Of a DNA stretch of 64,000 nucleotides, positions 45,025 through 58,364 are shown one piece after another. The notes beneath the pieces are model-generated. The model saw only the letters and a program-made list of their open reading frames with translations, made no database searches and was not told where the DNA came from. Position numbers and translations under genes: made by a program. How positions within the stretch are numbered: position 1 is the first letter of the stretch; each line of letters begins with the position of its first letter. The stretch is from Haloterrigena salina JCM 13891 (GTDB lineage Archaea > Halobacteriota > Halobacteria > Halobacteriales > Natrialbaceae): contig NZ_AOIS01000067.1 in the NCBI RefSeq assembly GCF_000337495.1, positions 62,001-126,000 on the forward strand. Direction: 5' to 3'.

Positions 45025-45038
45025 TCCCGGCGAGTCCA
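45025..45038 (+). repeat. Direct copy of the tRNA-Ala 3' end (attachment-site-like)
   Basis: TCCCGGCGAGTCCA repeats the last 14 bases of tRNA-Ala (44940-44953) 72 bp beyond the gene. Duplicated tRNA 3' ends next to a tyrosine integrase are the normal trace of site-specific integration; this copy may be an attachment-site remnant from an earlier event. Confidence 0.6.
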
Positions 45039-45047
45039 CTCGAAATT

Positions 45048-45093
45048 TGGCTCTTCAGATCTTTTGAGTGCTCTTTTCAGCACTTTAGAGCCA
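45048..45093 (-). terminator. Nested stem-loop downstream of the integrase gene
   Basis: TGGCTCT (45048-45054) pairs with AGAGCCA (45087-45093), enclosing AGTGCT (45067-45072) with AGCACT (45079-45084). It begins about 66 bases after the end of the leftward integrase frame, with T-rich loops, and may act as its terminator or an RNA-stability hairpin. Confidence 0.4.
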
Positions 45094-45159
45094 TTCTTAC
45101 AGCTACCGAGAGTCGACTATATGCAGTTTCGCGCGGAATTATCATGATCTTGGTATTGG

Positions 45160-46148
45160 CTAGAGGTCTTCGATGAAGTCGCGTCGCTGTTCCATCTTTT
45201 CGCGGTCGGTGCGTCTGTCGTAGTGGCGCTCGAGGATGTCCGAAGAGACATCGCAGCGGTCGCTGAGGATCTTCTCGGGGATGTCCTCGCGGAGTGGGTA
45301 GGTGATCGCTCCACGCCGAATCGTGTGCGGCGAGAGGCTACTGGGACTCCTTGAGTAGTGTCCGTACTCGGTCGCTTCGCAGTCCGATGGCTCGCGGCCG
45401 TGCGGGCAATCCTTGATCATACAGGGCTGTGTGAGTCGGTATACCTCCGACCGAATCTGCCCGGAGCTCAGCCGGCCCTTGCGGCTCGTCACGAGCGGTT
45501 CTCGTCCGTGCTCGTCCACGACATCGTGCCGGTGGAACCGGATGTACTCGTCAAGGACGTCGCAGTAGTAGTCGTCGAGCGCGATCGGCCGCTCCGCTGG
45601 CTCCTGCTTCTTCAGCGGCGTCTCGGTATCGGGACGGTGTCGCAGCCAGAAGCACTGCTCGTCTGGCTCGTAGTCCTCGAGGTCGACCGCTCGTAGACTC
45701 CCAAGGCGAATCCCGTGTGCCAGAGGATCGCCATGATAACGTGCTCGCGGCTCGCGTGCTTGTACCGCTCGAGGTAGCCGATGATCTTCTTCGCGCGATC
45801 GTCGTCAAGCAGTTCGTCGCGCGCTTCCTCGCTGCGGTCGACATCGGGGAGCTTCACGCACTCGCGCATCCCCGGTTCGACAGCGTCGATCGACGCGCAG
45901 AACTCGAGGAAGACGCGCAACGTCGCGGGCTGGCCGCCCAGCGTGACGATGTTCACGTCCTGCTGTCGCCAAACGCGGTAGCGATGCAGGCCGCGGCCGG
46001 TGAGATCGTTGAGGTTGTCGATTCCCTCCTTAGTACACCACTCGACGAACGCGTCCAGCCGGTACTTGTGGTTCTGGAGGGTTTTCTTGCTGATCTCGAG
46101 TTCACGGTGCGAGACGTAGAGTTCCACCGCCTCGCGTGGTGAGGTCAG
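45160..46148 (-). pseudogene. Tyrosine recombinase/integrase with a frameshift in the first catalytic-arginine motif
   Basis: Two frames together encode one XerC/D-type integrase. The N-terminal part runs from TSPREAVELYVSHRELEISK, through the SAM-like binding region, to IMAILWHTG. The next bases (around 45712-45714) lack one G, so the expected GIRLGSLRAVDLEDY reads out of frame. The second frame continues through LSPHTIRRGAITYP (HxxR) to the Tyr nucleophile in ILERHYDRRTDREK. The shift removes the first catalytic arginine in frame. A clear start codon is also lacking: upstream codons overlap the next, opposite-strand gene. It lies just beyond the 3' end of tRNA-Ala, as integrases do. Confidence 0.85.
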
Positions 46149-46213
46149 CCCAAGGGACGGCCCGACCGCAATTGGAACCTCTGAATCGTAATGAACCGAA
46201 ACCCGCCTGCTGG

Positions 46214-46534
46214 ATGTGTACGCTTGACGAGCGAATTCTTGAGCATCTGGCAGATGATTCGTGGTCGACACTGCGGCATATATCTCGGACAATCAATCTT
46301 ACTGCTTCACGCGGGCAGGTTGAAGAGCGATGTCAGTTACATTCTCAGGTTGGGTTAGTTGCTCCGATATTTGAGAACAGCAATATGTACGAGATTACTT
46401 ATGAAGGTCAAGAATATCTCGCTGGGAACTCGACGTTGAGAATCGATTCTACCCGTCACCTCAATTCAGTTGACTTTCAGATGTCGAAGGAAACAAGTCA
46501 TATTATTGTAGTTCTAGTTCATCATGAAGATTGA
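46214..46534 (+). CDS. PhiH1-repressor-like winged-helix protein
   Basis: A 106-residue protein beginning MCTLDERILEHLADDSWSTL, with recognition region TASRGQVEERCQLHSQVGLV and wing MYEITYEGQEYLAGN, as in haloarchaeal virus PhiH1 repressor-like regulators. Relatives usually start with a short ...KPAxWM segment; here an ATG at 46190 would give it if one A were present in the following AAA run, so the start may be damaged. It stands beside the integrase as expected of an integrated element's regulator. It overlaps the next gene by 11 bp. Confidence 0.7.
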   Translation: MCTLDERILEHLADDSWSTLRHISRTINLTASRGQVEERCQLHSQVGLVAPIFENSNMYEITYEGQEYLAGNSTLRIDSTRHLNSVDFQMSKETSHIIVVLVHHED

Positions 46535-47198
46535 ACGTCGAACTGTGGTAGGTAGCGCAGGAACAGTATTACTGTCTACCTTTGCAGGCTGTCTGGGAAA
46601 TGATAATGAAGAGCAAATAACCAATAATTCGAATGAAAACGATGACGAACAACTAACCAATGATGGAGAGCAATCTAGCGACAATAAGAAAAGTGAATTA
46701 CCCGCTCCTCACGTTGTTAACCGATATTATCCTGAGCCGCGTGCGGCCTCAATTAGCAATCATCACCAAACAGGTAACACATACGAATTCACAGTTGAAA
46801 TAGAAAATACAGGAGATGGTGGTGATATTAGTACGATGATGGTTTGGTTAGATAATCCGAACGACAACGTATATGGACCCAATAGTCACCCAGTACCAGA
46901 AACAGAACGGACACGGTACTTCAGTTCAGGGGAACGGAAGAAAATATCAGTCACTTCGGAAGGACGAGACGAATATGGGGGATACGGATTCCGGATCTGG
47001 AGCGCTGAAATCAGCGTTGAGGTCAAAAATGAGGGTGGAAGAGGAGCGGTAGAAATTCGATTGATGGATGGTGATAATGTTGTCAAATATGCTGAACCGA
47101 TAATAGAGGCTGGAGCAACTGAATCTTTCAAATTTGATAGGAACTTTTCAGATCCTGCTCCTAGTGAAGTAAGTATTGAAGTAGAATCTGCTGAGTAA
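46524..47198 (+). CDS. AT-rich hypothetical lipoprotein, 224 aa
   Basis: A secreted lipoprotein with KIERRTVVGSAGTVLLSTFAGC (signal and lipobox at residues 2-23, shown in part), an Asn/Asp/Glu/Gln-rich linker, then beta-sandwich-like strands (TYEFTVEIENTGDGGDISTM, AEISVEVKNEGG, EVSIEVESAE). The arrangement resembles CARDB/FxLYD-type surface domains. Base composition is clearly AT-rich against the chromosome. It is probably cargo of the integrated element; function unknown. Confidence 0.8.
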   Translation: MKIERRTVVGSAGTVLLSTFAGCLGNDNEEQITNNSNENDDEQLTNDGEQSSDNKKSELPAPHVVNRYYPEPRAASISNHHQTGNTYEFTVEIENTGDGGDISTMMVWLDNPNDNVYGPNSHPVPETERTRYFSSGERKKISVTSEGRDEYGGYGFRIWSAEISVEVKNEGGRGAVEIRLMDGDNVVKYAEPIIEAGATESFKFDRNFSDPAPSEVSIEVESAE

Positions 47199-47204
47199 CT
47201 ATTA

Positions 47205-47440
47205 CAACCAATTGACCTTCTCTCGTTATCGTTTCTGAGCCTCGGGGCTGTAGCTTCCTCGATAATGCTTAAAAAAACGTCTCGAGATCGTTCCAGTCAC
47301 CCCAGTCGCACACTAGATGCGGATCGACATCAGCAGAAGCGAGCGCGGTCGCCCAAGTCCGTCGAAGATCGTGGAAGCCGAGATGGTCCCATCCGGCATC
47401 TTCCGTCTCGTCATACAGGCGGTTGACCGTTGAGCGAACC
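47205..47440 (-). pseudogene. C-terminal remnant of a second tyrosine integrase
   Basis: On the reverse strand the sequence reads STVNRLYDETEDAGWDHLGF then HDLRRTWATALASADVDPHL and VCDWGDWNDLETF. These are the HxLR and WG motifs of haloarchaeal integrases. After LETF a run of seven T creates a stop; with six T it would continue FKHYRGSYSPEAQKR, which includes the Tyr nucleophile. A further stop follows KR. It is thus a decayed integrase tail, distinct from the one beside the tRNA. Confidence 0.75.
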
Positions 47441-47566
47441 CACCGTCAGAGTGACCGTGTACTTGTAATCTTAACGGGCGACGAGTTGGACGGTGCGTCG
47501 CGCACGTCGTCGACCGTTCGGATAGTCGTCGCGAGATCTAAACACATACCTCACGTAGGACGGTAT

Positions 47567-48514
47567 TTAGCGATACACTGCAATCGGGGAGATAGCCACA
47601 TCTGGATATGAAACTTTAAATCCAAAGTCTTTACCAAGATCCCCAATCACTTGTAGCATATCACCTAGATCAGAATCATCTTCTTCGACTGGATCATCAG
47701 TTGGCGGTTCAGTAATGGTGTCTACCCTAGCAATTATTGTAGCACTAGGTATGGAATTGTTTTGATATTTCGCGATCAGCTCAACTGGTTCTGTTTCCAA
47801 TTTCTCCTCCTGAAGCAATGCCCAAAAATCCATATTCGTGTCTCCTCCAATAGGCGCCTTACCAACAACCATCTCACTGTACGCCTGTGGCAAAACGTTT
47901 TCAAACATTTCAAACAAAGGGCCGAGTGTCTCAAACATTTGTTGAGCATCCCTCAATTCTTTCCATTCTTCAACATCAGACTCGTCCATCATATCGCCTC
48001 CCTCTATCTCGCTTATTTGACCGATGAAACGCTCCAAATCATCTGCTGAATCTAAAAATCCGTTTAGAAGTTCAAAGCTAGACTGGAAATCTCGAAGTTG
48101 TAGTTCTATATTAATTCGGATGATGTCTCCTTCACATATATCTCTTTGAAGGGCAGCCTGTATCTCTTGTTCGTTTAGGTCATTGATATCATGGAACCAG
48201 TCATCTTCGTATCCTTCTAACCATTCTTCGAGCAAGGTGAAATGGTAGTGGTGAAGTGCCTTATTATCTTCAGTTCGTGAGGTTGACCCTTCAGTTGTCA
48301 TCTGTTCTCCTTTAACCGATGAACTAACCCCACCTCCAGGTCCGAAGAGGAAACCTCGAACTCGGCCCATTATCCTTTCAGTCTCTTGTTCTGATTCACT
48401 TTCTGCTTCTATTCGCTCTTGCACATATCCCTGATCTAATCTAGCCGAGATAGATTTTACTCGATCCATGTCTAGATACACAAAGCCGGGAACTCGTTCA
48501 CTTGAAGTGGTCAT
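47567..48514 (-). CDS. DUF6414-like protein in AT-rich accessory DNA
   Basis: A 315-residue cytoplasmic protein. The start VPGFVYLDMDRVKSISARLD followed by QGYVQERIEAESES resembles DUF6414 (a conserved 'YLD...V.S..A....G' opening). A Gly/Ser segment (FLFGPGGGVSSSVKGEQ) and a Glu-rich helical centre follow, ending SYPDVAISPIAVYR. The gene is AT-rich, between an integrase relic and a truncated small ORF. DUF6414 members often sit in accessory regions of bacteria and archaea; a defence or phage-related role would be speculation. Confidence 0.65.
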   Translation of the reverse strand: MTTSSERVPGFVYLDMDRVKSISARLDQGYVQERIEAESESEQETERIMGRVRGFLFGPGGGVSSSVKGEQMTTEGSTSRTEDNKALHHYHFTLLEEWLEGYEDDWFHDINDLNEQEIQAALQRDICEGDIIRINIELQLRDFQSSFELLNGFLDSADDLERFIGQISEIEGGDMMDESDVEEWKELRDAQQMFETLGPLFEMFENVLPQAYSEMVVGKAPIGGDTNMDFWALLQEEKLETEPVELIAKYQNNSIPSATIIARVDTITEPPTDDPVEEDDSDLGDMLQVIGDLGKDFGFKVSYPDVAISPIAVYR

Positions 48515-48585
48515 ATTTCTACTAATGATTAGTATGTTAAGATACCTGTGGTAGGAGGCCGCATAACCAGATAGTTGATTCTCTT

Positions 48586-48663
48586 TTATCTTTTGGAAAA
48601 GTCAGCGACAAACTGTAGGTGACAGATAGAGTACGTTCCGTCTGGAGCCGAATTGTCTGTCAT
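48586..48663 (-). pseudogene. Truncated small ORF (25 codons) behind a copy of the shared promoter motif
   Basis: An ATG at 48663 opens a short frame, MTDNSAPDGTYSICHLQFVA, stopping at 48586 as the sequence turns AT-rich. A good copy of the shared promoter core (48712-48733, reverse strand) lies 70 bases upstream of this ATG, and the mirror gene behind the paralogous promoter at 58.9 kb is the DUF7123 gene, 66 bases from its core. I infer a small gene cut off by insertion of the AT-rich segment. Confidence 0.4.
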
Positions 48664-48711
48664 GTGTTCGTTCAGCGCTCTGCCACCACCGTGACCAAGG
48701 AACCCTTCCGT

Positions 48712-48820
48712 TCGAGGAACGCGGCCCTCAATACCACAACCGGCGCTCGAGGTGACGATGCTCAGTATCTAGGGGTACCCACGCGACCGTCGCTTCGACT
48801 ATTGAGAGCCCGGTTCTTCG
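48712..48820. promoter_or_regulatory. Divergent promoter module of the curlin-like gene (two cores around a CTAG box)
   Basis: A rightward core TATTGAG (48800-48806), N9, CTTCGA (from 48816) lies 75 bases before the curlin-like ATG. A leftward core TATTGAG (48733-48727), N9, CCTCGA points at the truncated small ORF. Between them CTCAGTATCTAGGGGT (48761-48776) starts 39 bp before the rightward core. The layout matches 58.89-59.0 kb almost base for base in spacing. The TAYTRAG part may be the TATA-like element and the CTAG box an activator or repressor site (inference). Confidence 0.6.
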
Positions 48821-48874
48821 AACGATGCGGGTCTGGATCCACGTGGAGTTCGACGGAACTCCGAAGAGACGACC

Positions 48875-49498
48875 ATGAAACGAACCCTACGCATTACGGT
48901 TGCACTGGTGTTCGCCGTGGCACTCGTCGGTGCCCTGGCGAGCGGCAGTGCGCTCGCATCCCCGAGCGATTGTACGTACACCGACTACTGTAACGACGCC
49001 GACGTCGATCAGTCCAACGCCGCCGACGTCTTCCAGAACGGTTTCGGAAACGACGCTGACGTCGACCAGCGCAACAAAGCAGGCGTCTTCCAGGACGGCA
49101 AGTACAACGACGCTGACGTCGACCAGCGCAACAAAGCAGGCGTCTTCCAGGACGGCAAGTACAACGACGCCGACGTCGATCAGCGCAACAAAGCAGGCGT
49201 CTTCCAGGACGGCAAGAACAACGACGCCGACGTCGACCAGCGCAACAAGGCGCTCGTCGATCAGGACGGCAAGAACAACAACGCTGACGTGACCCAGCGC
49301 AACGAGGCGCTCGTCGATCAGGACGGCAAGAATAACGACGCCGACGTCGACCAGCGCAACAAGGCGATCGTCGACCAGGACGGCAAGAACAACGACGCCA
49401 GCGTCGACCAGCGCAACACCGCCACCGTCGACCAGGACGGCAAGCACAACAACGCCGACGTCGATCAGGAGAACACCGCCGTCATCGATCAGCGCTAA
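48875..49498 (+). CDS. Secreted curlin-like repeat protein (putative amyloid subunit)
   Basis: A 207-residue protein: Sec-type signal peptide (residues 1-28, ending GSALA), a short segment with two cysteines (CTYTDYC), then nine 19-residue repeats from residue 40 to the end. The unit is NDADVDQRNKAGVFQDGKY, so each repeat holds two N-x-A-x-V-x-Q strands and a Q-x-G-x-x-N turn, the hallmark of CsgA/CsgB curlin repeats. Curlin subunits form extracellular amyloid fibres for adhesion and biofilm. No CsgG, CsgE or CsgF homologue is visible, so export would be by the general secretory route. Two similarly exported genes follow. Confidence 0.85.
   Translation: MKRTLRITVALVFAVALVGALASGSALASPSDCTYTDYCNDADVDQSNAADVFQNGFGNDADVDQRNKAGVFQDGKYNDADVDQRNKAGVFQDGKYNDADVDQRNKAGVFQDGKNNDADVDQRNKALVDQDGKNNNADVTQRNEALVDQDGKNNDADVDQRNKAIVDQDGKNNDASVDQRNTATVDQDGKHNNADVDQENTAVIDQR
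48992..49495 (+). repeat. Nine tandem 57-bp coding repeats
   Basis: These encode the 19-residue curlin-like units, eight full and one partial. Units two to four (about 49049-49219) are nearly identical in DNA, indicating recent duplication; later units diverge at the strand-2 position (AGVF, ALVD, AIVD, ATVD). Confidence 0.9.
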
Positions 49499-49508
49499 TC
49501 CGATAGCC

Positions 49509-49570
49509 GACGCTCCCCGTAGCGAACTCGCGAAGCACCGCGACCGAGAGCCCGTCTCGAGGGGAGCGTC
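49509..49570 (+). terminator. Inverted repeat after the curlin-like gene
   Basis: GACGCTCCCC (49509-49518) and GGGGAGCGTC (49561-49570) are perfect 10-bp complements eleven bases beyond the curlin-like stop, enclosing 42 nt. It could terminate most transcripts, giving more curlin mRNA than downstream mRNA, or act as a processing or stability element. No T-run follows. Confidence 0.4.
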
Positions 49571-49595
49571 CGGACTATCGACCGAGAGACCCCCG

Positions 49596-50372
49596 ATGAC
49601 GAAGAAGACGAAAGCGACAGCGACCGAAGACGAGCCGACTCGCATCGGTGATTCGATTCGTCGTCTGATGCCCGGAGCCACAGCCGTCCTGCTGCTACTC
49701 GCCGTCGCAGGAGGGACCGTGCTGGGGCTGCCGGCAGCGGGGACCGGTCCCGCGGACGACCCGACGAGCGGCGCGACGGACGCGGAGGCTGCTGACGACG
49801 TGAACGTAACCGTCGAGATCGACTGTGACGAGAGCGCCGTGCTGGTTACCGCACCCGACGACGCCGAGTACGGACTCAGCGTCGTGAACGTGGGTCCGTC
49901 GGGGACCAGCACGAGCACCGCGAAACGGGCCCCGCTCGCGGGGAACGCGACGGTTACGGTAGACGACGCCGACATCGTATACGCGTTCGTCACTGACGCG
50001 TTGACCGGGGAGCCGATCACGTCGGCCGTAGCACAGTGCGTCGAAGAACCGCGAACGGAGACGACCGACGGGCCGTCGATAGCCGTCGACTGCAACGAGA
50101 GCGCCGTCCGGTTTACGGCGCCCGACGCCGTCGCGTACACGGCTCGGGTGTCGTCAGTCGACGTCTCGCCGACGGGTGCGTCGACCGGCACCGTGAGCGG
50201 AACCGTGACGGGGAACGCGACGGTACCGATCGGAGACGAGCTGATCGTCGCGCTCGCGTCGACCGACGACGCCGACGACCCGATCGTGGCGATCCGAGAC
50301 TGCGGTCGGACCGCAGGCGACGAGCGCTCGCCGGCAGCGGAGCCGTGCTCGAGCGACTCGTCGGACTCGTGA
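49596..50372 (+). CDS. Exported/membrane-anchored protein with two cysteine-bracketed repeats
   Basis: A 258-residue protein with a polar N-terminus, one hydrophobic segment (ATAVLLLLAVAGGTVLGLPA, about residues 28-47) and an acidic extracellular part of two homologous units. Unit one begins VEIDCDESAVLVTAPDDAEY and unit two begins IAVDCNESAVRFTAPDAVAY; each ends near a second cysteine (VAQC, IRDC). Same strand and 98 bp behind the curlin-like gene, so probably part of the same system: anchor, nucleator or partner are possibilities, none shown. Confidence 0.75.
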   Translation: MTKKTKATATEDEPTRIGDSIRRLMPGATAVLLLLAVAGGTVLGLPAAGTGPADDPTSGATDAEAADDVNVTVEIDCDESAVLVTAPDDAEYGLSVVNVGPSGTSTSTAKRAPLAGNATVTVDDADIVYAFVTDALTGEPITSAVAQCVEEPRTETTDGPSIAVDCNESAVRFTAPDAVAYTARVSSVDVSPTGASTGTVSGTVTGNATVPIGDELIVALASTDDADDPIVAIRDCGRTAGDERSPAAEPCSSDSSDS

Positions 50373-50514
50373 GCGACCGGTCGGCATCCCGCCGCGCACG
50401 CGGTGTGATCCCGACGGCGCTCTCTCCCCAGGTAGCGCTTCGGCCCCGAAAATTCGCATTTTTCAGGGCGATCGTTTCCGAGGCGCCCGCTATCGCTCCC
50501 CGCTGAAAGCGCAA

Positions 50515-50541
50515 CAGTCGCCCGCCGACGACCGGCGACTG
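50515..50541 (+). promoter_or_regulatory. Stem-loop 14 bases before the third gene of the curlin-like set
   Basis: CAGTCGCC (50515-50522) pairs with GGCGACTG (50534-50541) across an 11-nt loop. It ends 14 bases before the ATG at 50556, so it could affect translation start or mark an RNA end. Confidence 0.35.
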
Positions 50542-50555
50542 ACGACCGACGACCA

Positions 50556-51095
50556 ATGTTCGAACACGACACGTCCGATTCGGTTTCGAAACGCAGCGTC
50601 CTCAAAGCGGTCGCGACGCTCCTTAGCGGGGCGACGCTGCTCACCGCACGAACCAGCGCTCGGACCGGGGAGCGATTCGACTTCGAGATCACGGAGCTGA
50701 CCGCGGAGACCGTCACCGCTCGCGTGCGCGTCTCGGCGGCGCTCGCGACGCACCTCCGGGAGGTGCCGAGTCAGATCGTTCTCGGACACCGCGACCAGTT
50801 CGGTCTCTCGGAAACGGACTCGACCGCGATCGACGACGCGACCGTCGAACGAACGTCCGAGGACGGCGTCGCCACGCCAGACGTAATGGCCAGCTTCGAA
50901 CGCACGGACGTGAACGCGAACGCGAATCGGTACGTCGTTACGATGCAGTTTCGCACTCGAGAGATCGATTTCTCCGGAGCCGAGATCGAGGACGGGATGC
51001 TGACGATGGGGCTGTTCGTTCCCCGGCTCGGATCGGAAACGGAATCGGCCGTGGTCACAGACGAGATCGAGAGCAGTCCGATCGACCTCGAGTAG
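50556..51095 (+). CDS. Hypothetical secreted protein, third gene of the curlin-like set
   Basis: A 179-residue protein with a Ser/Lys N-terminus and hydrophobic signal (KRSVLKAVATLLSGATLLTA), then a beta-rich domain: FDFEITELTAETVTARVRVS, RYVVTMQFRTREIDFSGAEI and MLTMGLFVPRLGSE. No cysteines and no lipobox. It follows the two preceding exported genes on the same strand after 183 bp. Family unknown. Confidence 0.7.
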   Translation: MFEHDTSDSVSKRSVLKAVATLLSGATLLTARTSARTGERFDFEITELTAETVTARVRVSAALATHLREVPSQIVLGHRDQFGLSETDSTAIDDATVERTSEDGVATPDVMASFERTDVNANANRYVVTMQFRTREIDFSGAEIEDGMLTMGLFVPRLGSETESAVVTDEIESSPIDLE

Positions 51096-51194: not shown

Positions 51195-53096
51195 CTACGC
51201 GGGCTCGTACTCGTACCCGGAGGTCGTGTGTTCCGCGAGCAACTCGCGGGCCCGGTCCTTGTTGTACGACTCGTCGACCCCGAACGGCGTAATTTGCGAG
51301 TCGTCGTACCAACTCGACCACCGCGGCTGGAACGTGTGGGTCCACTCGGCGAGTCCGCGGAACGCGTCCTCGGTGATCGCCGGTTTCTCGACGGCCATGG
51401 AGAGGGCCTGTCGGACCTCGCGGGTCCGCAGTTCCGCCCACCCATTTGCGCGTTGATTGTACGCGACGATCGTCAGGAACGGCTGCGGAATCTCGTAGAT
51501 CTCGACGGCCTCAGTCCCTCGAATATCCGCGTAGCGCTCTGGCGGGACCGACGTCGCCGTGAGCTCCCCGTCCGCGAGCGCCTCGAGACGATCCGCTCGG
51601 TCCCCGATCACTCGGTAGCGGTAGCGTTCGAAATACGGCGCGTCGCGCCACGCGTCGTCCATATCGTCGTCATCGGCGTGTTCGCGCATGTAGTACTCCT
51701 CGTTGCGCACAGTGACGAACTCCCGCGTGCGATCCCATCGCTCGAGCGTGTACGGGCCGAGGTTCCCCGTGAAGCTGAGTTCGGCGAACGCGTCGCTCGC
51801 GCGGAGCGCGTCGGCGTCGGGAACGTGCGCCTCGTAGAGTTCCTTCGGCGCGCAGTACGATCCCCAGAGAACCGGTTCCAGCGGAAAGTCGGGGTTGACC
51901 GACTCGAGTTCGAGCTGGAACTCGAACTCGCCCGTTCGCTCGACGTTTTCGACCGCCGCCCAATCGTCAACTCGGTTCGAGGGCGGGGTGGGCTCGTTCC
52001 AGGGGTGGTCACGCCCGCCGTCGATGGTGTGGACGTTCTCGATCTGGTACACCCAGTCGTCGGCGGTCATCCGGCCGTAGTCGTCGCCCCACCGGAGGGT
52101 GTCCCGGAGTTCGCAGACGTATACTTGGCCGCTGCCGGCGTCGGTGATGTCCATCCACAGCGGTCGGACGGTGTCATTTTCGTCGACGTCGTAGGCGCCG
52201 TCCAAGGTCAGGCCGATCCGCGCGGTGGCCCTGCTGTCGGTGCGCTCGGGAAAGTACAACCCTTCGGCCTCGCCTTCCACGCCCCAGACCCACTCGTCGG
52301 AGGCGGTGGGTCCGCCCTCGTTTCCGTTCCCGTTCCTGTCCTCGCCCACGTACCAGGTCGCGCGGTCCCAGTTCCCCCCGTAGGCTTCGACCGGACCGCG
52401 AACCGAGCGTCGGTACCCGATAACGTCGTCCGACATCGCGAGGAAATTCACCGGCTGCTCCTCGCTCAACGCGCCGAGGACCTCCGCGATCGGCGCTCGC
52501 CGCTCGTCCGGATCGGTCGTCGTACGGAACGCTTCGAGCCGCGACTCGATGTCGGCCTCGGGAACGTACCCGTAGTAGTTGGTCGGCGCCCGCTCGAGCC
52601 AGAACGCGTCGATCGCGGCGGGCGTTCGCGGATACGTGTTGAACGCCACCCCGAACATGAGGTCCCAGGCCGATTCGCTCGCGGTCTCCTCGCGCGGTCC
52701 GGCGTTGTTCGGTCCCGCAGTCCACTCGGGGTCGCCGTCGCCGAGGTACCGGTTTCGCACGTACTGCCGGAGGAGCCGATCGTAGCTGACGCGCTCGAGG
52801 GAGACCGCGACGCCGAGATCCGCGACCTCCGCCGCGATGATCTCCGCGGCTGTCTCCACCGCGTCGTTCCCCTCGATACACGCGAGTACCAGTTCCACTT
52901 GCGTTCCGTCGGGTCCGATCAACTCCACGTCGCCGCTGTCGTCGTCTCCGTCTTCGTCCTCGTTACCGCCGTCGCGCCCGCAGCCGGCGATGCCGACCGT
53001 CGTTCCGACCCCGACCGCCTTCAGAAGCCGTCGTCTGGCCACTGCGTCGCCGCCGGGATCGATCCCGTCCCCGCTGACTGTGGTACCCAGTGGCAT
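51195..53096 (-). CDS. Oligopeptide-type solute-binding lipoprotein (SBP_bac_5) with circularly permuted halves
   Basis: A 633-residue exported lipoprotein (ARRRLLKAVGVGTTVGIAGC; Tat motif and lipobox). Residues ~50-270 look like the usual C-terminal lobe: AAEIIAAEVADLGVAVSLER, NYYGYVPEADIESRLEAFRT, and DERRAPIAEVLGALSEEQPV. Residues ~275-633 look like the usual N-terminal part: LRDTLRWGDDYGRMTADDWV through VRQALSMAVEKPAITEDAFR to SYNKDRARELLAEHTTSG, where the protein ends. Thus family halves are in reversed order. No permease or ATPase genes are adjacent, so it may serve as a receptor or sensor for peptides. Confidence 0.8.
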   Translation of the reverse strand: MPLGTTVSGDGIDPGGDAVARRRLLKAVGVGTTVGIAGCGRDGGNEDEDGDDDSGDVELIGPDGTQVELVLACIEGNDAVETAAEIIAAEVADLGVAVSLERVSYDRLLRQYVRNRYLGDGDPEWTAGPNNAGPREETASESAWDLMFGVAFNTYPRTPAAIDAFWLERAPTNYYGYVPEADIESRLEAFRTTTDPDERRAPIAEVLGALSEEQPVNFLAMSDDVIGYRRSVRGPVEAYGGNWDRATWYVGEDRNGNGNEGGPTASDEWVWGVEGEAEGLYFPERTDSRATARIGLTLDGAYDVDENDTVRPLWMDITDAGSGQVYVCELRDTLRWGDDYGRMTADDWVYQIENVHTIDGGRDHPWNEPTPPSNRVDDWAAVENVERTGEFEFQLELESVNPDFPLEPVLWGSYCAPKELYEAHVPDADALRASDAFAELSFTGNLGPYTLERWDRTREFVTVRNEEYYMREHADDDDMDDAWRDAPYFERYRYRVIGDRADRLEALADGELTATSVPPERYADIRGTEAVEIYEIPQPFLTIVAYNQRANGWAELRTREVRQALSMAVEKPAITEDAFRGLAEWTHTFQPRWSSWYDDSQITPFGVDESYNKDRARELLAEHTTSGYEYEPA

Positions 53097-53131: not shown

Positions 53132-54856
53132 TCAGGGACGATCATCGACGCGGCTCGACGGGTCCGGGGCGTTCGCGTCGCCGCGTCGGGGCGCCGCTCG
53201 CGGGAGGTCGATGATCACGATCGACCCGCGCGGGTCGTTGTCGTCGAACCGGAGCGTTCCGCCGGAGTTATCGACCACCCAGTAGGTCAGCCAGAGGCCG
53301 AGCCCGCTCCCGTGCTCGAGCGCCGTCTCGCGCCCCTCATCGATCGCGGCGCGATCCTGTTCCGGAATTCCGGGGCCGTTGTCCGCCACCTCGATGCGAA
53401 CTCGCCCGCCGTTCTCGTCGGCCGGATCGCGGTCGACGTCCGGTTCGGGGCCCGTCGCGGTCACCGCTATTTCGACGCGCGGGTCGGCGCTGTCGTTGTG
53501 TTCGCAGGCGTTCTCGCAGACGTTCTCGACTGCCAGCCGCACTGAGGGAAGCGCCATCGCCCACGCCTCGTCCGGCAGCGACGCGGTCACGGTAACGTCG
53601 GGATATTCCTCGCGAAGCTCCGCGACCGCGTCGGCCGCGAGCGAGGCCACGTCGACGGGCCTCCGATCGGGATCGGCCTCGAGCGCGTTTTTCATCTGTC
53701 GCGCCTTCCGACTCAAGCCCGTGATGTCTCGCCCGGTCCGGTGGATCGTCTCCGCCGCGCCGACGACCGTTTCGTCCGCGGCCTCGTCGGTGATGAGATC
53801 CGCGTAATTCAGAACGATGCTCATTCGGTTGCGGATATTGTGCTGCAACACGCGATAGAGGACGTCGAGGCGCTGCCGCCGCTCTCGGAGTTCCGACTCG
53901 CGCGCTCGCAGCGTCGCCGCCAATTCGTTGAAGCCGTCGCTCATCCGTTCCCACTCGGCGCCGCCGCGCAGCGACACCGTACTGTCGTAGTCGCCCTCGC
54001 CGAGTCGGTCGAATCCGTCGAGTAACCGCTCGGTCTGGCGGAGGCTCACGGCGTACTGCCAGTACCCGAACCCGACCATGACGAGCACCACGATGACCAG
54101 CACCAGCGTCTGGAGCGCGGCTAACCGATCCAATCGATCCGCTAGCAGCGTCCGATCTCGAGTGACCGTGACCTCCCACCCGGTCGACTCGACGGTCGAG
54201 GAGCTTTCGATCCCCTCGTCGAACGTCCGCTCGTTCTCGTTGAGAACCACCCCGTCTCCAACGATAGTGACCGTCTGCGAACTCGTCTCGAGCGGCGGGA
54301 TCGCGTCGAAGATCGTCTGCCGATCGAGGTACATGGCTCCCACGAGGACGCCCCGAACCCCCGAGCCGTCCAGGATGGGCGCGCTGAACACGAGAACGGG
54401 CCTGTCGGCTCGCTCGGCGTATTCGACGTCGCTCACGTACGTTTCGCCCCGAAGCGCCCGCTCCACGTACGGCGTTTCGCTTCGGTCGGATCCGATCACC
54501 GAGCGTCTCGTCCCTGCCGTAACGGAGCCGCGGAAATCGACGACCGTTCCGTTGGCGTCGACGAGTTGCGCCGAGTAGAATCGAGAGTTGTCGAGAAACG
54601 CGTCGAGGAACGGGCCGCTCCGATCGAACTGCCGGGCCTCGGGCCGCGACGCGACCAACCCGATCCGATCTCGGTGTTCCCAGATCGTTTCGTCGATCTG
54701 CTCGGCGACCAACGAGGCCGTCTCGTCGGTTCGCCGTTGTTCGTCGTCGACGACGTCGCGTTTGTACGACTCGAGCGTCCAGTGAACCGTCCCGCTCAGC
54801 ACGAGCGTGATCACGACGAGGATGACGACGAATTTCGTTCGTAATCGGACTCTCAT
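53132..54856 (-). CDS. Membrane sensor histidine kinase with extracellular Cache-like domain
   Basis: A 574-residue kinase: transmembrane helix 1 (FVVILVVITLVLSGTVHWTL, about residues 8-27), extracellular dCache-like sensor (to ~260; VEYAERADRPVLVFSAPILD), helix 2 (TLVLVIVVLVMVGFGYWQYA), HAMP, then RVLQHNIRNRMSIVLNYADL with the phospho-histidine and an HATPase domain (VENVCENACEHNDSADPRVE; DNGPGIPEQDR). It lies 35 bp downstream of the peptide-binding protein gene start on the same strand and is divergent from a HalX response regulator, so these three may form a signalling set. Confidence 0.88.
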   Translation of the reverse strand: MRVRLRTKFVVILVVITLVLSGTVHWTLESYKRDVVDDEQRRTDETASLVAEQIDETIWEHRDRIGLVASRPEARQFDRSGPFLDAFLDNSRFYSAQLVDANGTVVDFRGSVTAGTRRSVIGSDRSETPYVERALRGETYVSDVEYAERADRPVLVFSAPILDGSGVRGVLVGAMYLDRQTIFDAIPPLETSSQTVTIVGDGVVLNENERTFDEGIESSSTVESTGWEVTVTRDRTLLADRLDRLAALQTLVLVIVVLVMVGFGYWQYAVSLRQTERLLDGFDRLGEGDYDSTVSLRGGAEWERMSDGFNELAATLRARESELRERRQRLDVLYRVLQHNIRNRMSIVLNYADLITDEAADETVVGAAETIHRTGRDITGLSRKARQMKNALEADPDRRPVDVASLAADAVAELREEYPDVTVTASLPDEAWAMALPSVRLAVENVCENACEHNDSADPRVEIAVTATGPEPDVDRDPADENGGRVRIEVADNGPGIPEQDRAAIDEGRETALEHGSGLGLWLTYWVVDNSGGTLRFDDNDPRGSIVIIDLPRAAPRRGDANAPDPSSRVDDRP

Positions 54857-54998
54857 CACTGATTCGTGGTAACAATTAACAAAGTACTCGGTACGCGCAC
54901 TTAAGCGCACGCAACGAACGTCGTCGGACACCCGCGACCGGCCGCGCACGAAAGCTATAACTCGGTCACAGGCGAACCTCTCTAGGACATTCGTTAAC

Positions 54999-55571
54999 AT
55001 GGGTCACGATCAGAACCCGACACTGCTCGTCGTCGACGACGAGCGCGAGGTGGCGGACGCGTACGCGCTCCGTCTTCGGCGGCGGTACGACGACGTCCGG
55101 ACGGCGTACGGGGGCGAGGAGTGCCTCCAGGAGATGGACGACACCGTCGACGTGGTACTGCTGGATCGACGGATGCCGTTCTCCGGCGACAAGGTGTTAA
55201 CGGAGATCCGCGATCGGGGACACGACTGCCAGGTCATCATGGTAACGGCCGTGAATCCCGGGTTCGATATCGTCGATATGCCGTTCGACGACTACCTGTG
55301 TAAGCCGATCGAGAAGGACGATCTCTTCGCGGCGGTCGAACAACAGGCGACCGCCGCGTCGTACGACGACCCGCTCTCGGAGTTCTTCAGCCTCACGGCG
55401 AAACTCTCGGTGCTCGAAGCCGAACACACGCCCGAACAGCTCGAGGAGTCGAGCGAGTACGTCCGCATGCAACGTCGGGTCGCGAAACTTCGCGAGGGGC
55501 TGGAGGTGCCGCGGGAGGATTTCGAGCGAATGGTCGAGACGTTCACCGCGATCAATCGGGGCGAAGGGTAG
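54999..55571 (+). CDS. HalX-type response regulator
   Basis: A 190-residue protein: receiver domain (TLLVVDDEREVADAYALRLR, acid pair D13-D14; VVLLDRRMPFSG with phospho-acceptor D56; LCKPIEKDD lysine) followed by a HalX domain (SEFFSLTAKLSVLEAEHTPE, RVAKLREGLEVPREDFERMV), found almost only in haloarchaea. No DNA-binding domain. Divergent from the adjacent kinase, its likely partner. Confidence 0.92.
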   Translation: MGHDQNPTLLVVDDEREVADAYALRLRRRYDDVRTAYGGEECLQEMDDTVDVVLLDRRMPFSGDKVLTEIRDRGHDCQVIMVTAVNPGFDIVDMPFDDYLCKPIEKDDLFAAVEQQATAASYDDPLSEFFSLTAKLSVLEAEHTPEQLEESSEYVRMQRRVAKLREGLEVPREDFERMVETFTAINRGEG

Positions 55572-55587
55572 CCGTCACGGCGGCCGT

Positions 55588-56766
55588 CTATGGCGCTCTC
55601 TCGTCGGTCTCGGCCCCGCGGAACTCGAAGCGCGCGCCCCCGGCATCGCCGGCCGTGAGCGTCACGTTCCAGCCGTGGTCTTCGACGAGTTGGCGGACGA
55701 TAGCCAGTCCCAATCCGGTGGTACCGTCTCCGCTCGAGTAACCGGGTTCGAACACTCGCTCGCGCTCCGCGGGGGGAACGCCCGGCCCGTCGTCGGCGAC
55801 GTAGAACCCGCCGTCCAGGCCGCCGACCGTCACGGTCGCGTCCCGACCGCCGTGTTCGACCGCGTTTCGGAACACGTTCTCGAAGACCCGCTGGAGCCTC
55901 TCGGCGTCGGCCTGAAGCGTCGGGAGGTCGTCCTCGAGACCGAGCGCGGCATCGGCCGTTTCGACGGTTTCCCACGCCGTTTCGGCGATATCGCCGACGG
56001 CCACGCTACCGCTCGGTTCGACCTCCGTCCCGCCGACCGAGAGCGCGTCCCGGATCAGCCGCTCGATCCGATCGAGCGCACCCTCGACTTTCTCGAAGTG
56101 AACGTCCTCGCCCGTATCGCGAGCCGCCTCGAGGCGGATCTTCGCAACCTCCAGCGGGTTTCTGAGATCGTGCGCCGCGACGGCGACGACTCGCTCGAGC
56201 CGGTCGGCGCGCGTCGTCACGCGGTCGACGCGCCGGCGTAACTCCGTCACGGTCGTGTAGACGACGTAGCCGCCGGCGTCCCCACCCCCGTCTCCGTCCT
56301 CGTCCGGAGACGGGATGGCCTCGAGACGGAAGTACCGCCGCTCGTCGTCGGCTCCGCGGCGAATCCCGACGGTGACGCGTTCGCCCGCGTCGAGTCGTTC
56401 GAGGACCGCCGCTCCGGTCGCGTCTGCGTCCGGTTCGTCTCCCTCGGACGGTCGCGTCGCGTTTCCCGCGGCGGTCGCCAGTTCCCAGCGCGGACCGGAG
56501 TCACGGTCGGTCGGCCCGGGAAGCAGGCGTTCACGGAGGGGAGCGTCCCTGATCGCCGCTTCGCCGACCTCGAAGGCCGTCTCGAACGCGGGATTGACCG
56601 CGCGCACTACGGCGGTTCCACCTTCCACCTCGTAGTAGAGGAGCGGGTCGGGGAAACGCCGAAAGAGGCATCGCGTCGGTCCGCCGTCGGCGACGAGCGG
56701 GGCGGGCAGGTCGTCGCGTCGCCGTTCGAAGGGGCACCCGTCCCGCCGGTTGCTGCGACCGGTCAT
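55588..56766 (-). CDS. Soluble PAS-domain histidine kinase
   Basis: A 392-residue kinase with PAS (~30-180; VVRAVNPAFETAFEVGEAAI), HisKA (VAVAAHDLRNPLEVAKIRLE), and HATPase (FENVFRNAVEHGGRDATVTV; GTTGLGLAIVRQLVEDHGWN). No membrane segments. The ATG at 56766 overlaps the stop of the Bat-type gene upstream by 4 bp, indicating co-translation. It converges with the HalX regulator. Confidence 0.87.
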   Translation of the reverse strand: MTGRSNRRDGCPFERRRDDLPAPLVADGGPTRCLFRRFPDPLLYYEVEGGTAVVRAVNPAFETAFEVGEAAIRDAPLRERLLPGPTDRDSGPRWELATAAGNATRPSEGDEPDADATGAAVLERLDAGERVTVGIRRGADDERRYFRLEAIPSPDEDGDGGGDAGGYVVYTTVTELRRRVDRVTTRADRLERVVAVAAHDLRNPLEVAKIRLEAARDTGEDVHFEKVEGALDRIERLIRDALSVGGTEVEPSGSVAVGDIAETAWETVETADAALGLEDDLPTLQADAERLQRVFENVFRNAVEHGGRDATVTVGGLDGGFYVADDGPGVPPAERERVFEPGYSSGDGTTGLGLAIVRQLVEDHGWNVTLTAGDAGGARFEFRGAETDERAP

Positions 56767-58364
56767 TCGTTTCGCCTCGGTTGGCGGTCGTCGACCGCAA
56801 CCGGCCGTTCGTGCTCCGCGTCGTCGTCGAAGAAGGCGTCGAGGAGTTTCCGCTGCCCCGCTCGCAGATGATAGTGAAGCGTCGGCGAACTGATTCCGAG
56901 CGTCTCGGCGAGCTCCTCGGCGGTGCTGTCTCGCGGCGATTCGAAGTACCCGCCGTAGTACGCCATCTGGAGGGCGTTTCGCTGGCGGTCGGTCAGGCGG
57001 TCGCGGAGCCCGCTCCGGAACTCCTGGACCGTTTCGATCGGTCGTTCGCGGTCGAGTTTCGACAGTAGTTCCGATCTGGGAAACCGCTCGCCGACAGCCT
57101 CGACGACTTCTCGGATGTCGCTGCTGGGCGCTACTTCCGCGACGATCAGGCCGGTTCCGCGATCGAACTCCGCCGTTCTGACGGTTGCGCCGTACGTGGC
57201 TAACGTGACGATCGGCGACCGTCCGGACACCGTAACCTCGGTGAAGCCGCCGGTCTCGGTCGCGGACTCGTGGATCACGCGACCGGCGTCGACGTCGGAT
57301 CGATCGTCGGCCAGCTCGCGGAGCGCATCGGGTTCGGCACCGTCGACGCGAACGTAACAGAGTAACGATGCAGCGTCTAACGGGACGATGCCTTCGACCG
57401 CGAGTTCGCAATCGAGTCGCGCGGACGCCGTCGCGAAGAAGGCGTCGGCGATACGGAACGTGAGTTCGATGACCGTATCCGAGAGCAACAGATTGCGCTG
57501 GCGAGTCGCGTTGATGACGAACCCGGTGGTCACGCCGAGCGTTTCCAGGCTCTCCCGTTCGCGCTCGCTGAAGGCGTCCGGATCGAGTGCGTAGACGCTC
57601 AACACCCCGTAGGTGGTGTCCCCGTACCGGAGCGGAACGACGACGCTCGACTGCAATCCGCGAGCGAACGCCTCTCGGCGGACCGGCTCCGGAACCGACT
57701 CGTCGTCCACGAGGTGGCGGACGACTCGCGTTTCCCCCGTCTCTAGCGTCGCGTACTCCGGCCCCCTCGAGCCGTCGGCGTCGGCACCGCTCTCGACGAT
57801 GAGATCGAGAATCCCGTCGTGCTCGCCGGCCGCGGTTCGACAGACGAGCCGCTCGCCCGTCATCTCCCGCTCGCCGATCACCGTGAATTCGTACAGGTCG
57901 GTCTCCGCGAGCCGCTCACAGACCAGTTCCTCGACTTCCTCCCGGGTCGTGGCCCCGACGAGGTCCCGAATGATCTTCTGGACGATGTTGTTAATCCGCT
58001 CGAGACGAGCCAGCTCCGCCTCCCGATCCTCGAGGTCGCCCTCGAGGGCTTTCCGGTCGGTGACGTCTCGATAGTAGACCGTGACCCGCTCTCCGATCGT
58101 CGTCGTCCGAACGCGAAGCCAGACATCTAGCTCCGGGAAGTACTCCTCGAAGGAAATCTCGGCTGGCTCCGGATCGTCGCCGCCGAAGTGCTCGTGAAAC
58201 GTCGCCGCGAACGATCGCGGGAACACGTCCCTGATATCGGTCCCGACGAGGGTGTCGCGCTCTCGCTCGAGCAGGTCCGCCGCGACAGCGTTAGCCGTCG
58301 TAATCTGCCAGTCGGTGTCGACGACGAGCACGCCGTCGGTGACCCCGTCGAGGACCTCACCCAT
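56763..58364 (-). CDS. PAS-GAF-Bat regulator with HTH_10
   Basis: A 533-residue one-component regulator: PAS at ~1-110 (GVTDGVLVVDTDWQITTANA), a linker coiled coil, GAF at ~130-290 (LQSSVVVPLRYGDTTYGVLS), Bat-specific domain ~300-455, and HTH_10 (LTDRQRNALQMAYYGGYFES; ELAETLGISSPTLHYHLRAG). The start is ATG 58364; a GTG 13 codons upstream is possible. It is translationally coupled to a PAS kinase and lies in the middle of the surface-protein block, so it is a candidate regulator of the shared promoter module (inference). Confidence 0.9.
   Translation of the reverse strand: MGEVLDGVTDGVLVVDTDWQITTANAVAADLLERERDTLVGTDIRDVFPRSFAATFHEHFGGDDPEPAEISFEEYFPELDVWLRVRTTTIGERVTVYYRDVTDRKALEGDLEDREAELARLERINNIVQKIIRDLVGATTREEVEELVCERLAETDLYEFTVIGEREMTGERLVCRTAAGEHDGILDLIVESGADADGSRGPEYATLETGETRVVRHLVDDESVPEPVRREAFARGLQSSVVVPLRYGDTTYGVLSVYALDPDAFSERERESLETLGVTTGFVINATRQRNLLLSDTVIELTFRIADAFFATASARLDCELAVEGIVPLDAASLLCYVRVDGAEPDALRELADDRSDVDAGRVIHESATETGGFTEVTVSGRSPIVTLATYGATVRTAEFDRGTGLIVAEVAPSSDIREVVEAVGERFPRSELLSKLDRERPIETVQEFRSGLRDRLTDRQRNALQMAYYGGYFESPRDSTAEELAETLGISSPTLHYHLRAGQRKLLDAFFDDDAEHERPVAVDDRQPRRNE

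Follow-up and report, generated by a model that had tools for sequence, protein, structure and literature searches.

The window analyzed here, a 64,000 nt stretch of the genome of Haloterrigena salina JCM 13891, contains a gene for an exported protein with curlin-type repeats, followed on the same strand by genes for two further exported proteins, P2 and P3, and then by a convergent gene and putative regulatory genes. The features of this locus are the following:

48875..49498, + strand: curlin-repeat protein, 207 aa, proposed fibre subunit (PF07012, match to 8C50, repeat layout, AF2)
48959..48991, + strand: mature N-terminal segment SPSDCTYTDYC, with two Cys ahead of repeat 1 (sequence)
48992..49495, + strand: nine repeats, N-x-A-x-V-x-Q-x-N-x-A-x-V-x-Q-x-G-x-x, eight of 19 aa, the last of 16 aa
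49596..50372, + strand: P2, tandem FnIII/Ig-like protein, secreted or N-terminally anchored, 258 aa (co-occurrence, Cys, AF2, Foldseek and VIA)
50556..51095, + strand: P3, exported, Tat-like signal, 179 aa; association with the curlin gene uncertain
51195..53096, − strand: SBP_bac_5 substrate-binding protein, convergent neighbour
53132..55000, − strand: dCache/HAMP histidine kinase, possible regulator
54999..55571, + strand: response-regulator-like protein, paired with the kinase

A preliminary description of this DNA had proposed a nine-repeat exported protein followed by two exported proteins on the same strand, one of them with a duplicated two-cysteine unit, and the gene layout agrees with it, the duplicated unit being that of the first protein, P2. 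The ORF at 48875-49498 starts with a Sec-type signal (...ASGSALA, followed by SP) and continues with the segment SPSDCTYTDYC and the repeats, the ninth of which stops at the final Q-R and leaves the C-terminus without a cap. All nine repeats have N at positions 1 and 9, A at 3 and 11, V at 5, V or I at 13, and Q at 7 and 15, and G occupies position 17 in all eight repeats that have this position. The protein is acidic and Asp-rich (22% D+E), and Cys33 and Cys39 are conserved across the four curlin-bearing genomes.

An antisense reading was also considered because a 609-aa open frame (48887-50716, − strand) lies over the curlin and P2 genes. It was ruled out since the protein-level conservation falls in the + frame: dN/dS of the curlin gene in this frame is 0.06-0.39, and P2 shares 32-36% identity with its homologs from another haloarchaeal family. 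Thus, the + frame is the coding frame, and the antisense frame is no gene but a by-product of high GC content and repeats.

Directly upstream of the curlin gene, an insertion (45038-48766) carries an integrase-like fragment, a lipoprotein gene and a DUF6414 gene, and the region from 46 to 49 kb is AT-rich, with a GC content of about 0.47. The orthologous loci differ to the left of the curlin gene, which makes the cluster variable at its left edge. The motif TATCTAGGGG, a possible regulatory element, occurs in a conserved non-coding stretch preceding the curlin gene, both in the window (48625-48874) and upstream of the orthologues (L022-L024), and is present twice in G025 and in G027.

Curlin repeats with an unusual spacing

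A Pfam scan of the repeat protein yielded a match to PF07012 (Curlin_rpt) with 124.5 bits (E=1.4e-36) in 8 stretches, compared with a curated cut-off of 20.7. Eight controls, in which the repeat region was shuffled or its repeats were permuted, gave not a single match to this profile, which excludes a low-complexity artefact as the cause. The curlin profile search that had been suggested earlier is thus clearly positive, with clean controls. Furthermore, when the PDB was searched with a sequence profile of four orthologues, curlin fibre subunits came out on top (8C50, E=8e-18; E. coli CsgA 8ENQ, E=7e-4). The NCBIfam equivalog cut-offs were not reached, neither for CsgB (81.8 vs. 165 bits) nor for CsgA (50.7 vs. 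160 bits).

Published curlin repeats consist of N-$-Psi-$-Psi-$-Q motifs that are connected by a 4-residue X-G-X-X arc and a second arc of 4-5 residues, and total 22-23 residues (PMC10192328). The Haloterrigena protein contains 18 N-x5-Q motifs, including N-x5-Q-x4-N-x5-Q units, and the linkers between them strictly alternate between 1 and 4 residues. This is not the canonical two-arc spacing of 4 and 4-5 residues, as the other linker is a single residue in nine of nine repeats. Nearly all short linkers of four bacterial relatives are 4 residues long, and periods of 11 and 22 peak in three of the four. The claim that the spacings seen here are those that define curlin therefore holds for the N-x5-Q motifs with 4-residue linkers and fails for every second linker. 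Taken together, the protein is, by its sequence, a curlin-repeat protein, but the alternating linkers and the scores below the CsgB and CsgA cut-offs set it apart from CsgA/CsgB in the strict sense.

The single-residue linker leaves the in/out alternation unbroken over 15 residues (N.A.V.Q.N.A.V.Q), suggesting that each repeat forms one long strand and not two. Structure prediction of the repeat region with AF2 (four sequences) yielded one usable model of five, of the beta-solenoid type, with a mean pLDDT of 74.6 and values of about 76-87 over the repeats; the pLDDT of the other four models ranged from 54 to 27. The usable model has nine strands of 14-17 residues, one per repeat. Its top three Foldseek matches were Pontibacter CsgA, E. 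coli CsgA and FapC, with TM-scores of only about 0.2, and VIA-align superimposed it on E. coli CsgA (8enq) with a Z of 12.9 and an rmsd of 1.4 Å for 99 residues spread across model residues 46-207. This count and span would fit 4.5 coils of 38 residues, with about 22 residues overlaying each CsgA coil. Matches to SufB/SufD were dismissed (rmsd near 9 Å). In addition, the H. turkmenica protein has Cys at positions 39 (the common one), 77 and 115, that is, at two steps of exactly 38. The model, the CsgA superposition and this Cys spacing lead us to favor a wide curli solenoid in which two 19-aa repeats may build one 38-aa coil; with one confident model of five and TM-scores of about 0.2, support for this coil geometry is modest.

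The N-x5-Q core motifs match those of curlin exactly, every second linker has the canonical XGXX form and the PF07012 match is in register. These features would equally suit a narrow curlin solenoid of the standard kind, in which each 19-aa coil has two 7-residue strands per repeat and a one-residue arc on one side. Such a protein would still be a curli-like fibre subunit. However, we consider the narrow coil unlikely: the one-residue linker retains the in/out parity, Q7 and N9 both belonging to the core pattern; its two peptide steps reach at most about 7 Å, short of the distance from sheet to sheet; the AF2 model has a continuous strand at this position; and the Cys of the H. turkmenica protein are spaced by 38 residues, not by 19.

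The acidic, Asp-rich composition speaks for another reading, in which the protein would not be amyloid but a secreted beta-solenoid that does not polymerize, for example an ion-binding protein or a surface adhesin, and its N/Q ladder would have arisen by convergence. Weak VIA matches of the model to ice-binding and Ca-dependent antifreeze solenoids point in the same direction, whereas curlin is clearly the best match of both sequence and fold, and the last repeat is uncapped. We judge a non-polymerizing solenoid to be improbable, and fibre formation by the curlin-repeat protein, as far as can be judged from sequence, to be likely.

Distribution of the locus and its companion genes

Matches to PF07012 were present in four of the 125 genomes of the family, all of them from Haloterrigena; no further genome had a match above the cut-off among 391 sampled Halobacteria or among 393 sampled genomes of the phylum. 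Sub-cut-off candidates in G196, G282 and G322 were rejected, the first because the protein is unrelated and has no curlin arrays, the other two because their frames are interrupted by stops. No curlin-like proteins were found in phages or viral contigs, and the plasmid matches were bacterial only. Within the genus, the distribution is patchy: the curlin gene occurs in four of six genomes, including that of the cultured type strain H. turkmenica DSM 5511 (G027), with 9, 10, 9 and 11 repeats and a conserved core. P2 and P3 strictly accompany it, which is the co-occurrence for which a survey had been proposed. Of the six Haloterrigena genomes, P2 was found in the four with the curlin gene, with just chance-level matches elsewhere in the family, and P3 in the same four of the 125 family genomes.

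The preliminary description had also assumed that the bacterial accessory proteins are replaced, and CsgG is indeed missing from all four curlin-bearing genomes at E<=1, in a search that detects the E. coli control. Among the neighbouring proteins scanned at the locus, none had a Pfam match to CsgE, CsgF, CsgC or CsgH, and a second, CsgB-like curlin was not found in the genome.

P2 consists of a duplicated unit with two Cys per module, and these four Cys are invariant in all seven P2 proteins. According to AF2, it folds into two beta-sandwich modules (pLDDT of about 55-84 within the modules), and Foldseek places the model close to tandem FnIII domains. The Vibrio cholerae biofilm scaffold RbmA, which likewise has two tandem FnIII-type modules, is the match that covers both P2 modules among the matches listed (VIA, 161 residues, Z 7.9, about 11% identity), at a level below that trusted for kinship. 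RbmA may thus be a lead to the function of P2, not a trusted relative, and differs from it in that each P2 module has a candidate disulfide.

A class-wide profile search revealed one strong relative of P2 outside of Haloterrigena, in genome G235 of another family (E=3e-29), and a follow-up in the genus of G235 added two more, in G410 (E=1.5e-50) and G731 (E=6.6e-47). Weak matches in G075, G064, G053, G065, G061, G303, G380 and G327 appear to be due to signal peptides or chance, and plasmids and viral contigs contained no P2. Each of the three foreign P2 genes is closely adjoined by a gene for a large repeat protein:

L049:4570-7386, L057:10444-13119 and L058:10476-12950: secreted alternating N/Q repeat proteins of 824-938 aa, near the P2 relatives

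These proteins consist almost wholly of N/Q/A/V/S alternating with D/E. The repeat units, N-x-Q-x-A-x-Q-...-Q-x-[AV]-x-(x)-G-x-x, are 23 and 24 residues long; 19 residues make up an alternating strand and 4 or 5 a G turn. A period of 46-48 is found in two of the three proteins, and the turns mirror the curli coil with its one 4-residue and one 4-5-residue arc. Near its N-terminus, each of the three proteins carries exactly two Cys, separated by 48-50 residues, and its C-terminus is short, hydrophobic and APLAL-like. They matched nothing in Pfam or NCBIfam, and their profile similarity to the curlin protein stayed within that of shuffled controls, that is, it did not exceed what composition explains. 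Sequence homology between the two kinds of proteins was therefore dropped, and only a similar design is claimed.

In a search of 17 genomes from the genus of G235 and the six Haloterrigena genomes, the N/Q repeat protein was found in exactly three of the 17, those with P2, a coincidence with a probability of 1 in 680 if the two were independent, and weaker under shared descent. Gene order and strand differ between the three loci, so that the linkage of P2 and repeat protein is not just that of an unbroken inherited block. All three loci also contain, in rearranged order, genes for a large FG-GAP (integrin-like propeller) protein and a CAP-domain protein, both secreted. Second copies of acidic alternating repeat proteins lie elsewhere in G731 (L070:7836-10241, − strand) and G410 (L071:6750-8780, + strand), without an adjoining P2. 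A frame of 1509 aa at L044, in a genome from the family of Haloterrigena, has many TVTQIQxAAxGAAxGA repeats and encodes another secreted repeat protein; a weak P2 match at L044 is probably spurious.

P3 had no family match and no PDB match. Its sole distant relative, in genome G369 of another family (E=9e-10), shares the Tat-like signal (SRRSVLR, SKRSVLK in the window) and adjoins a histidine kinase, a response regulator and two PAS kinases; no curlin-like array is present within 19 kb. These four genes are 45-76% identical to their counterparts at 53132-58364 of the window, with 60% for the dCache/HAMP kinase and 76% for the response regulator. The dCache kinase, the response regulator and the two PAS kinases (window 53132-58364; L050:10007-17298) are thus conserved next to P3 in two haloarchaeal families. 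P3 may be a member of this kinase/regulator group and not of the fibre gene set; alternatively, these regulators may control the fibre.

The SBP_bac_5 gene shares the distribution of the curlin gene within Haloterrigena, the same four genomes of six, and probably belongs to the same gene block. This distribution raises the question of whether the whole block is just co-inherited, with the three genes being neighbours by chance or through a shared mobile history; the curlin protein might then form a fibre while P2 and P3 have unrelated jobs. The distant P3 relative beside kinase and regulator genes, without curlin, fits this view, which nevertheless appears to us to have a low probability, given that, in another family, three loci with differing gene arrangements again have P2 next to a repeat protein and that both coincide in exactly three of 17 genomes. 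That P2 recurs in a different family, next to a second kind of solenoid-like N/Q repeat protein, supports its proposed role as an accessory protein (anchor, scaffold or chaperone), and P2 is probably a real partner of the repeat protein. Of the two novel accessory proteins that had been postulated, P2 can therefore be retained, whereas the case of P3 is weakened by its distant relative.

A proposed fibre system and its relation to curli

Curli are described as a machine of diderm bacteria that is built around an outer-membrane exporter. For Haloterrigena, the best explanation of the results, which we hold to be probable although far from certain, is that the gene product is the subunit of an extracellular, wide-coil, curli-like fibre, with P2 as a dedicated partner and without CsgG. 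Judging from the signal peptide, the protein would be exported unfolded by Sec and would fold outside of the single membrane into an open-ended beta-solenoid, the uncapped ends of which would stack head to tail. A 38-aa coil would consist of two strands of about 15 residues joined by canonical Q-X-G-X-X-N arcs, and the Q-R-N junction would be a position within the strand and not a turn. CsgG would be dispensable because there is no outer membrane to cross. P2, with one predicted disulfide per module, might anchor, nucleate or cross-link the fibre, and the related P2 proteins might likewise serve the larger, more acidic N/Q solenoid proteins of other haloarchaea. We infer the export route, the coil geometry, polymerization and the role of P2, as well as a biological purpose in surface adhesion or biofilm formation.

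With bacterial curli (CsgA/CsgB; E. coli 8ENQ, Pontibacter R15.5 8C50), the Haloterrigena protein shares the N-$-Psi-$-Psi-$-Q motifs, the XGXX arcs, the Sec signal, uncapped repeats, the PF07012 match and the predicted overlay on CsgA coils. It differs in the 19-aa unit, the alternating 1- and 4-residue linkers, the proposed 38-aa coil with strands of double length, the absence of CsgG and of a second curlin, the archaeal host and the P2 partner. FapC (9U4U), a functional amyloid of Pseudomonas and the third Foldseek match, has a different repeat motif, and no Fap-type profile was matched in Pfam. The sheath proteins of Methanothrix (MspA) and Methanospirillum are likewise archaeal, extracellular, amyloid-like assemblies (PMC6242892, PMC10593813); the sheaths are tubular and made of a different protein, and no sequence link to curlin was found.

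Archaea may have a curli-like fibre system of their own. In a wider version of this proposal, to which we give somewhat less than an even chance, the haloarchaeal system would comprise wide-coil acidic N/Q solenoids (strands of 15 or 19 residues, coils of 38 or 46-48 aa), a four-Cys tandem FnIII P2 and no outer-membrane exporter. The Haloterrigena curlin would be the member that still resembles bacterial curli, and the 824-938-aa proteins would be hyperacidic members that escape the profiles searched. If true, an archaeal curlin without CsgG and with a different partner would mean that curli-type fibres are possible with much simpler machinery. It would also represent a new surface structure for archaea and a natural curli solenoid of a different width, working in very high salt.

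The statement that no established description of such a system exists in haloarchaea needs a qualification. In the openly licensed literature, no description of a curli- or amyloid-type system of haloarchaea or Haloterrigena was found. A 2023 structural survey of curlins leaves archaea unmentioned (PMC10192328), and a large update on curli from 2025 required another csg gene within 5 kb and would therefore pass over the Haloterrigena locus (PMC12822426). However, the curli survey of Dueholm (2012) devoted one sentence to a single protein from an archaeon, with curli-like repeats at regular intervals, giving no name, neighbours or analysis, and then set it aside (PMC3521004). This protein is possibly the H. 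turkmenica orthologue, the genome of which was public in 2010. P2, a probable partner that adjoins similar repeat proteins in other archaea, had not been described previously.
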